Shown here: positions 10,759 to 12,199 of the stretch, piece by piece
Layout: the number at the start of each line of letters is the position of its first letter
Numbering within the stretch: position 1 is the stretch's first letter
NCBI GenBank assembly: GCA_021815315.1
Contig: JAKAHB010000006.1
Span: 1-35,191, forward strand
From: a bacterium
GTDB taxonomy: Bacteria; Patescibacteriota; Minisyncoccia; Portnoybacterales; JAKAHB01
Direction: 5' to 3'
Length of the DNA stretch: 35,191 nucleotides
Notes under the pieces: generated by a model
Told to the model about the DNA's origin: nothing
The model's input: the letters and a program-made list of their open reading frames with translations, nothing else
The model's database searches: none
Translations under genes and position numbers: made by a program

Positions 10759-10832
10759 TGGCTCGGGGACTAGGATTCGAACCTAGGTTACAAGGGCCAG
10801 AACCTTGCGTCCTACCACTAGACGATCCCCGA
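10759..10832 (-). tRNA. tRNA-Gln (anticodon CTG), CCA apparently encoded
   Basis: TCGGGGATCGTCTAGTGGTAGGACGCAAGGTTCTGGCCCTTGTAACCTAGGTTCGAATCCTAGTCCCCGAGCCA; cloverleaf with anticodon loop TTCTGGC. Confidence 0.93.
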
Positions 10833-10834
10833 AT
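10812..10834 (-). repeat. 23-bp direct repeat, copy 1 (5' part of tRNA-Gln)
   Basis: Plus strand ctaccactagacgatccccgaat, identical to 11152-11174. Confidence 0.95.
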
Positions 10835-10861
10835 AATATTATTTTTTAGTAAAATAATATT
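10835..10861. repeat. AT-rich 11-bp inverted repeat between GIY-YIG stop and tRNA-Gln
   Basis: AATATTATTTT-TTAGT-AAAATAATATT. Confidence 0.7.
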
Positions 10862-11099
10862 TTAGCTTGCCTTTTAAAACTTCCCTGCCATACCCACTCT
10901 TAAAAAACTTTTCCGCGCATATCGCATCTTGTTTGTCCAAGAAGGCCTCGTAAAATATTAAGCTAAAAGGCGCATTTCTTTTCGTATAATACCCTCCTCT
11001 TCTCTGGTTATGTTCCTTAAAACGTCTTTTCAGATCGCCAGTAACTCCGACATATAATATCCCGCTCTTAAGACTTTTTAAAACATAGGCATACCACAT
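10839..11099 (-). CDS. GIY-YIG nuclease domain protein (UPF0213/YhbQ-like)
   Basis: MWYAYVLKSLKSGILYVGVTGDLKRRFKEHNQRRGGYYTKRNAPFSLIFYEAF...; start at MWYAYV rather than the extended ORF. Confidence 0.9.
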   Translation of the reverse strand: MWYAYVLKSLKSGILYVGVTGDLKRRFKEHNQRRGGYYTKRNAPFSLIFYEAFLDKQDAICAEKFFKSGYGREVLKGKLKYYFTKK

Positions 11100-11151
11100 G
11101 GAAAGAATGATTACTTGTCCCCGCCTCTTCGGCGGGTCGCCGATGAGGCGA

Positions 11152-11174
11152 CTACCACTAGACGATCCCCGAAT
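11152..11174 (-). pseudogene. tRNA-Gln 5' fragment (23-bp direct repeat, copy 2)
   Basis: Exact copy of the tRNA-Gln 5' region (ATTCGGGGATCGTCTAGTGGTAG); sequence diverges right after the D-loop GGTAG. Confidence 0.85.
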
Positions 11175-11275: not shown

Positions 11276-12199
11276 CTACTTTAAATAGCGCCTGATAGCG
11301 ATAAAGCTGGAAAGAGCTCCCAACACTACCCCCACCGCTACCTGGAAAAACAGCAAGGAAAAAAAGTTTTCTTTTAAAAAACTGAAGATGTCATTGCCTG
11401 GGACAAAACTCGCCAGCTTGGGCGAAATAAGCGCCACCAGAGGAAAAACTATAATCATTGTGGCCACCGCGGCGGAAACGCCATAAAGCACGCCTTCCAC
11501 AATAAAAGGCCCGCGCACGTTCCAGTTGGTAGCCCCCACCAAACGTTTAACGGAAATTTCATCGCGCCAATTGTAGATAGTCAAACGCACGGTGTTAAAA
11601 GCCACCAAAACCGCCAAAATCGCTAAAATTAAACTAATAACCAAGCCGGTTCGTTGAGCAGTGTCGGTGATATTGGAAAGCCGATTGATAATCTCCTTGT
11701 TCTGTTTGTAATTAACTTTGTCCACCAATTGGGAAAAATCGGCGTCCTGGACAAACTGAGCTACTTTCTCGTATTCCGTCGCTGAATCGGACTTGATGTT
11801 CAAGCTGGCTTGCAGGGGATTTTGGTCTAATTCTTTCAGCCCCTCCAACAAGGCGGCATTGTCCTTGTGTTTTTCTTTAAAACTAGCTAGAGCCTGTTCG
11901 CGCGAAATATACTGAACGGCTTTAACTTCCGGCATTTTTTCCAGTTGGTCTTTAGCCGCTAGAACATCCGCCTCTTTGGCTTCCTGTTTGAAATAGACCG
12001 AAATATCCACCTTTTGCTTGAGTTCGCTGATAATCCCTTGAGCCACCACGTTAAAAAACAAAAGACCGGTAATAACGAAAATAGTCAAAACCATAACCAA
12101 AACCGTCGCGGCCGATAACCAAGAATTACGCCGAAAACTGCGCCAGCCAGCTTTAGCGATTCTCCTGATATTCACGATAAGAGTTTTATAAGTGGGCAT
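11276..12199 (-). CDS. ftsX: Cell division protein FtsX
   Basis: Four-TM FtsX layout; RSFRRNSWLSAATVLVMVLTIFVITGLLFF, DISVYFK, ISVKRLVGATNWNVRGPFIVEGVLYG. Confidence 0.93.
   Translation of the reverse strand: MPTYKTLIVNIRRIAKAGWRSFRRNSWLSAATVLVMVLTIFVITGLLFFNVVAQGIISELKQKVDISVYFKQEAKEADVLAAKDQLEKMPEVKAVQYISREQALASFKEKHKDNAALLEGLKELDQNPLQASLNIKSDSATEYEKVAQFVQDADFSQLVDKVNYKQNKEIINRLSNITDTAQRTGLVISLILAILAVLVAFNTVRLTIYNWRDEISVKRLVGATNWNVRGPFIVEGVLYGVSAAVATMIIVFPLVALISPKLASFVPGNDIFSFLKENFFSLLFFQVAVGVVLGALSSFIAIRRYLK

Follow-up and report, generated by a model that had tools for sequence, protein, structure and literature searches.

A GIY-YIG gene beside a duplicated tRNA-Gln end in a Patescibacteria genome: probable copy of a mobile family in structured-RNA genes

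Elements moved by integrases commonly use the ends of tRNA genes and restore them, and fungal mitochondria harbor double-hairpin elements, in which two adjacent GC hairpins are located in the loops of RNA genes. We know of no link between tRNA genes and the UPF0213 proteins. SegB, a free-standing GIY-YIG homing endonuclease of the T-even phages, cuts inside tRNA genes (PMC2988022, PMC13096335), and an RNA hairpin is located near the start of segB (PMC2988022). In CPR bacteria, insertion sequences in rRNA genes carry GIY-YIG ORFs outside any group I or II intron; the study concerned deals with rRNA only, tRNA goes unmentioned in its text, and it judges these GIY-YIG proteins to lie outside homing (PMC11270868).

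The locus described here is present in a window (the whole stretch of DNA that was analysed) of 35,191 nucleotides from a Patescibacteria-type genome of 669 kb that is 99% complete (G000). Its parts, with the basis of each assignment, are as follows.

11276..12199, minus strand: ftsX, the upstream neighbour, which fixes the empty site in relatives (ORF list and gene order of the relatives)
11152..11174, minus strand: duplicate of the 5' part of tRNA-Gln lying upstream of the ORF, with 2 nt of leader and tRNA positions 1-21 (exact repeat)
11120..11151 (32 nt), minus strand: pair of neighbouring GC hairpins (TCGCCTCATCGGCGA, CCCGCCGAAGAGGCGGG) in the D-loop position of the fragment (comparison with relatives)
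11117..11119, minus strand: GAC, tRNA sequence resuming after the hairpins, short and weak alone (comparison with L131, L132 and L135)
10839..11099, minus strand: GIY-YIG ORF P0001, 86 aa, or 87 codons including the stop (Pfam GIY-YIG, E 3e-15)
10812..10834, minus strand: 23-bp repeat again, here forming the 5' part of the intact tRNA (exact repeat)
10759..10832, minus strand: intact tRNA-Gln(CTG), the sole one found in the genome (ARAGORN)

The first-pass annotation had reported the 23-bp repeat, with its two copies 340 bp apart, and an 87-codon GIY-YIG ORF whose stop codon lies 6 nt before the intact tRNA. Both descriptions are accurate: the repeat has exactly two copies on the minus strand and none is expected in shuffled sequences, which rejects a chance repeat, and P0001 is the only gene between them, with no integrase gene in that interval. 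The fragment had also been said to diverge right after GGTAG. The break is indeed there, but the hairpin pair intervenes and the tRNA sequence then resumes; in relatives, this resumed stretch (GGACGCATGGCT) is longer than in the window and reaches the anticodon loop. A group I or II intron was rejected, there being no Rfam intron match at L005 and the tRNA being intact.

The order ftsX to tRNA-Gln(CTG) is conserved in relatives. In nine of them (G003, G010, G016, G018, G019, G024, G032, G048 and G054) the gap between the two genes is 9-98 nt long and free of ORFs, versus gaps containing a GIY-YIG ORF of 446 nt in the window, 286 nt in G013, 305 nt in G020 and 970 nt in G029. Judged against these empty sites, the unit is an insertion, as had been proposed from the window alone; the ORF-free sites also mean that the presence of both copies is not constant among relatives, and at the window locus no second full-length tRNA in a decayed state was found. 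In G018, an ORF is present further downstream of tRNA-Gln, and G030 has a tRNA fragment and a hairpin with no ORF detected, which looks like a scar. The ORFs that occupy the ftsX/tRNA-Gln site belong to different parts of the protein tree, and the site was therefore probably invaded more than once. The same contrast is seen at other tRNA genes: a tRNA-Glu site is occupied in G012 and empty in G014 of the same genus, with matching flanks on both sides, and an ORF separates two tRNA-Ser genes in G008 that are 10 nt apart in G016 of the same genus.

The window's genome contains seven small GIY-YIG ORFs besides uvrC, which are scattered over the protein tree and have the catalytic domain of homing nucleases with its active-site positions conserved, the residues Y5, Y16, G18, R26, H30 and E63 being invariant among the seven. 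Five lie directly upstream of a tRNA gene (Gln, Leu-CAA, Leu-TAA, Asn and Ser-GGA), four of them with a copy of the tRNA 5' part ahead of the ORF. The sixth follows tRNA-Ser(TGA) and is itself followed by an 18-bp repeat of that tRNA's 3' end, and the seventh lies within the 16S rRNA gene (L007). There are 44 tRNA matches in this genome, and among the 37 whose anticodon was read each is single except CAT.

Far from being a single case, the arrangement recurs at many tRNA genes across Patescibacteria, as a search for the same ORF beside other tRNAs revealed. Small GIY-YIG ORFs are present in 22 of 23 genomes of the same order, with up to 14 per genome, and all surveys together yielded 171 distinct ORFs from 87 genomes. 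A tRNA gene is located within 150 nt of 89 of these 171 ORFs (downstream in 64 cases and upstream in 25), fractions that are not prevalence estimates because the ORFs are mostly best matches. The targets comprise 18 tRNA isotypes, the ORF is on the strand of the tRNA in 89 of 89 cases, and none of 24 control Y1 transposases from the same order lies within 150 nt of a tRNA. Six further ORFs are at other RNA genes, namely tmRNA (3), RNase P RNA, 23S and 16S rRNA. The tmRNA cases (L047, L071 and L073) come from three genomes, form one clade and have the ORF directly downstream, and at L050 the ORF is 10 nt upstream of the RNase P RNA. ORFs flank a single tRNA on both sides at L076, L080, L132, L133, L140, L143 and L201, and are stacked at L082 and L202.

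Taken together, the explanation that we consider best, and on balance probable, is that the 5' fragment, the double hairpin and the GIY-YIG gene of the window constitute one copy of a large mobile family that lodges in structured-RNA genes, chiefly tRNA genes. It is best read as a minimal homing-like element that moves horizontally and, on insertion, duplicates one end of the tRNA it targets, so that the tRNA stays whole. The remaining 76 of the 171 ORFs (~44%), at which no recognised RNA gene was found, count against this explanation. Many of the ORFs away from RNA genes are located inside inverted repeats (L041, L045, L048, L049, L053, L066, L091, L106, L109 and L112 included; for example CCAGGTAGTAGAAATTCGAC and TGTCATTCCCGCGAAAGCGGGAATCCAG), apparently in the loop of a REP-like palindrome, and this placement could be a second architecture of the GIY-YIG family.

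Such placements are what would be expected if the protein recognised hairpins or cruciforms, its preference for tRNA being one for hairpin-rich RNA genes (tRNA, rRNA, tmRNA, RNase P), with no sequence-specific homing. The insertions do end in tRNA loops, and the structure-specific nuclease SLX1 is the next solved relative of the protein after UPF0213. We nevertheless regard this alternative as unlikely, since pure structure recognition does not predict that close relatives in different genomes are found at the same tRNA isotype. The clades of the protein tree, which has 88 columns and many unresolved forks, tend to group by target rather than by genome (Cys, in three genomes, Glu, Ala, Met and tmRNA). 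The ten closest relatives of P0001 (59-66% identity), four of which come from a second genome set, are at tRNA-Gln in seven cases and at tRNA-Pro in three. Among cross-genome pairs, the same target is shared by 8% at 35-45% identity, 31% at 55-70% and 69% above 70% (13 pairs). At 50% identity or more, the target is common to 66 of 354 pairs; 2000 shuffles gave a mean of 31 and a maximum of 67, in a test whose pairs are not independent. A target preference of the family is thus evident from the loci compared. Sharing is weak below 55% identity, which counts against the mobile-family explanation, and the prediction that the closest relatives have the same target holds only in part for the Leu(TAA) protein: its phylum relative L193 (70%) is at tRNA-Leu(TAA), and three class relatives (54-61%) are at a tRNA-like 3' end, an inverted repeat and tRNA-Gln.

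Horizontal transfer between genera into the cognate site is documented by one clear pair, L131 and L132, whose hosts are of different genera within one family. Both are at tRNA-Gln and have in common a block that starts with the tRNA fragment and runs as far as the stop of the ORF, the ORF dS being 0.06; the upstream flanks are 66% identical, and the downstream tRNAs differ. Since the ORFs are nearly identical while the tRNAs beside them differ, we dropped the notion that the ORF is always accompanied by the intact tRNA when it moves.

The nearest solved sequences are the UPF0213 single-domain GIY-YIG proteins (1ywl, 1zg2; profile E 1e-14 to 1ywl), and the similarity to UPF0213-like proteins spans the single domain. 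P0001 consists of the catalytic domain alone and lacks a distinct DNA-binding region, which counts against the mobile-family explanation. A scan of named genomes returned only three relatives, all distant; the assignment to Patescibacteria is based on the organisms of these three and on genome size. There was also a weak match to one phage record. From the substitution pattern, the ORF protein is under purifying selection: dN/dS is low for every pair tested, including P0001 and its relatives, the ratios of the deeper pairs being rough since dS is saturated. Purifying selection, the sense orientation throughout and the 26 of 64 upstream-type cases in which the ORF stop codon lies inside the tRNA would all suit a resident host gene for tRNA maturation or repair that is co-transcribed with tRNAs, the repeats being by-products. 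However, the same site is occupied or empty among near relatives, the tRNAs involved differ between genomes, there are up to 14 copies per genome and some copies are broken, and transfer between genera has taken place, all of which make a resident gene improbable.

For the duplicated tRNA ends, non-cognate tRNAs aligned to the same flanks served as the null. A cognate 5' remnant exceeds the 99th percentile of this null at 26 of 55 upstream-type loci. Exact duplications are present at 29 upstream-type loci; their starts are mostly no more than six nt away from tRNA position 1, and most end in the D-arm (10-26) or the anticodon loop (33-36), while two end at 52-57. In a smaller class, a copy of the tRNA 3' end follows the ORF; this is clear in four downstream-type loci, where the copy starts at positions 52-71. 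The first-pass annotation had the tRNA restored by the element's own 5' copy. A duplicated end does leave the tRNA intact, but the existence of the 3' class means that this is not tied to the 5' end, and whether the 5' part is carried or duplicated from the recipient differs between loci. At the recent cases L004, L097 and L193 the fragment is identical to the tRNA of the same genome, in keeping with duplication during insertion. In G013 its closest resemblance is to tRNA-Gln from G048, a distant genus, as would be expected of a fragment that was carried in; both routes may occur.

Movement in trans by an integrase or other enzyme, with the GIY-YIG gene as a passenger, would accord with the habit of integrase elements of using and restoring tRNA ends, which is established knowledge. 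The GIY-YIG ORF is, however, the only gene common to the loci, and the ends of the duplications vary by locus, unlike a fixed crossover site, so that we give this alternative very little credence. Tandem tRNA duplication followed by decay, to which the direct repeat of a partial tRNA might point, can be dismissed practically with certainty, as can chance, given the same gene family and order at 89 tRNA sites, the control transposases (0/24), the empty ftsX/tRNA-Gln sites and the lack of a full decayed tRNA at the window locus.

Some loci have more complex structures. Cognate 3' remnants are present beyond the tRNA at 14 loci. In L132 and L135 the outer tRNA halves pair mutually rather than with the inner tRNA, as though the original tRNA had been displaced by another. 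In L131 and L132 the inner tRNA-Gln has its acceptor stem extended by a flanking inverted repeat (in L132, 15 bp without mismatch), outside which there are 3' tRNA remnants. At L189 (G006:C24), which has no ORF, a tRNA is located inside a tRNA: two outer tRNA-Glu halves enclose a different complete tRNA-Glu, flanked by the inverted repeat CACCCCGCCATTTTTTAT / ATAAAATGGCGGGGC. L193 (G492:C28) has, near the contig end, a 119-bp exact direct repeat of the ORF 3' end and the tRNA-Leu 5' half, which may reflect a recent insertion stacked on another, a unit in tandem or an artefact of assembly.

An adjacent hairpin pair is often present between the tRNA fragment and the ORF, in the D-loop or anticodon loop of the fragment, and the pair of the window recurs in L131, L132, L135, L245, L247 and L248. 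Its core has one exact copy in the window's genome, which rejects a dispersed repeat. In four Cys elements, both sides have changed in 6 of 12 pairs and 48 of 48 cells pair; as the structure was read off the same sequences, the percentage paired is biased and the evidence lies in the compensatory changes. In two Leu elements, both sides have changed in 5 of 20 pairs, which 27 of 500 shuffles reach. The leaders of upstream-type ORFs are more strongly folded than their shuffled counterparts, with a median z of -2.5 compared with -1.2 for ORFs with no RNA gene nearby. The hairpins could possibly act in translational control, as for segB (PMC2988022), or in blocking of the target.

Returning to the mobile-family explanation, the most likely course starts with a cut or nick made by the GIY-YIG protein in a loop of the target tRNA gene, which would be the D-loop at the window locus and the anticodon loop or T-loop elsewhere. 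Repair would then copy the hairpin-ORF unit into the cut gene and duplicate one tRNA end, so that the unit would be flanked by a fragment and an intact tRNA, and selection would retain the insertions after which a whole tRNA remains. The promoter of the tRNA probably also serves the nuclease gene, and the two would be co-transcribed. It counts against this explanation that the target sequence should persist in the restored tRNA, whose protection is explained by nothing that we have seen. More tentatively, and at somewhat less than even chances, these loci may represent a new class of minimal mobile element (~340 bp, one gene of 80-95 aa) that targets a loop in most of the tRNA isotypes of Patescibacteria and lets its host survive by means of a complete rescue tRNA, left or recruited, a natural counterpart of engineered home-and-rescue drives.

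If this is true, these elements would be among the smallest selfish elements aimed at tRNA genes and would explain the abundance of small GIY-YIG genes in Patescibacteria (up to 14 per genome in the surveyed order). It becomes testable how a nuclease exploits a single-copy tRNA gene without host death, and how the target is protected later. It would also follow that tRNA fragments and odd tRNA copies in Patescibacteria genomes can be scars of GIY-YIG elements. The loci point to a large family of minimal mobile genes in tRNA genes that is apparently undescribed: we found no account of GIY-YIG tRNA elements in the open-access literature searched.

SegB is the nearest analogue, being likewise encoded by a stand-alone GIY-YIG gene that is located in a tRNA region and promotes its own spread. 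However, SegB is located between tRNAs in a phage cluster, whereas the genes described here are cellular and encode putative nucleases of ~80-95 aa, and the present units have a duplicated tRNA end and a double hairpin. The ORFs of the CPR rRNA insertions share the host group and the protein family, and L007 (16S) and L117 (23S) are of that sort. As in tRNA-using integrative elements, a duplicated end keeps the tRNA whole, but the present units have no integrase, are ~340 bp long, involve 5' as well as 3' ends and have variable breakpoints. The UPF0213 entries 1ywl and 1zg2 are nearest in sequence, but are hypothetical proteins of other bacteria. Finally, unlike in the double-hairpin elements of fungal mitochondria, the hairpin pair here has a single genomic copy and is tied to an ORF.
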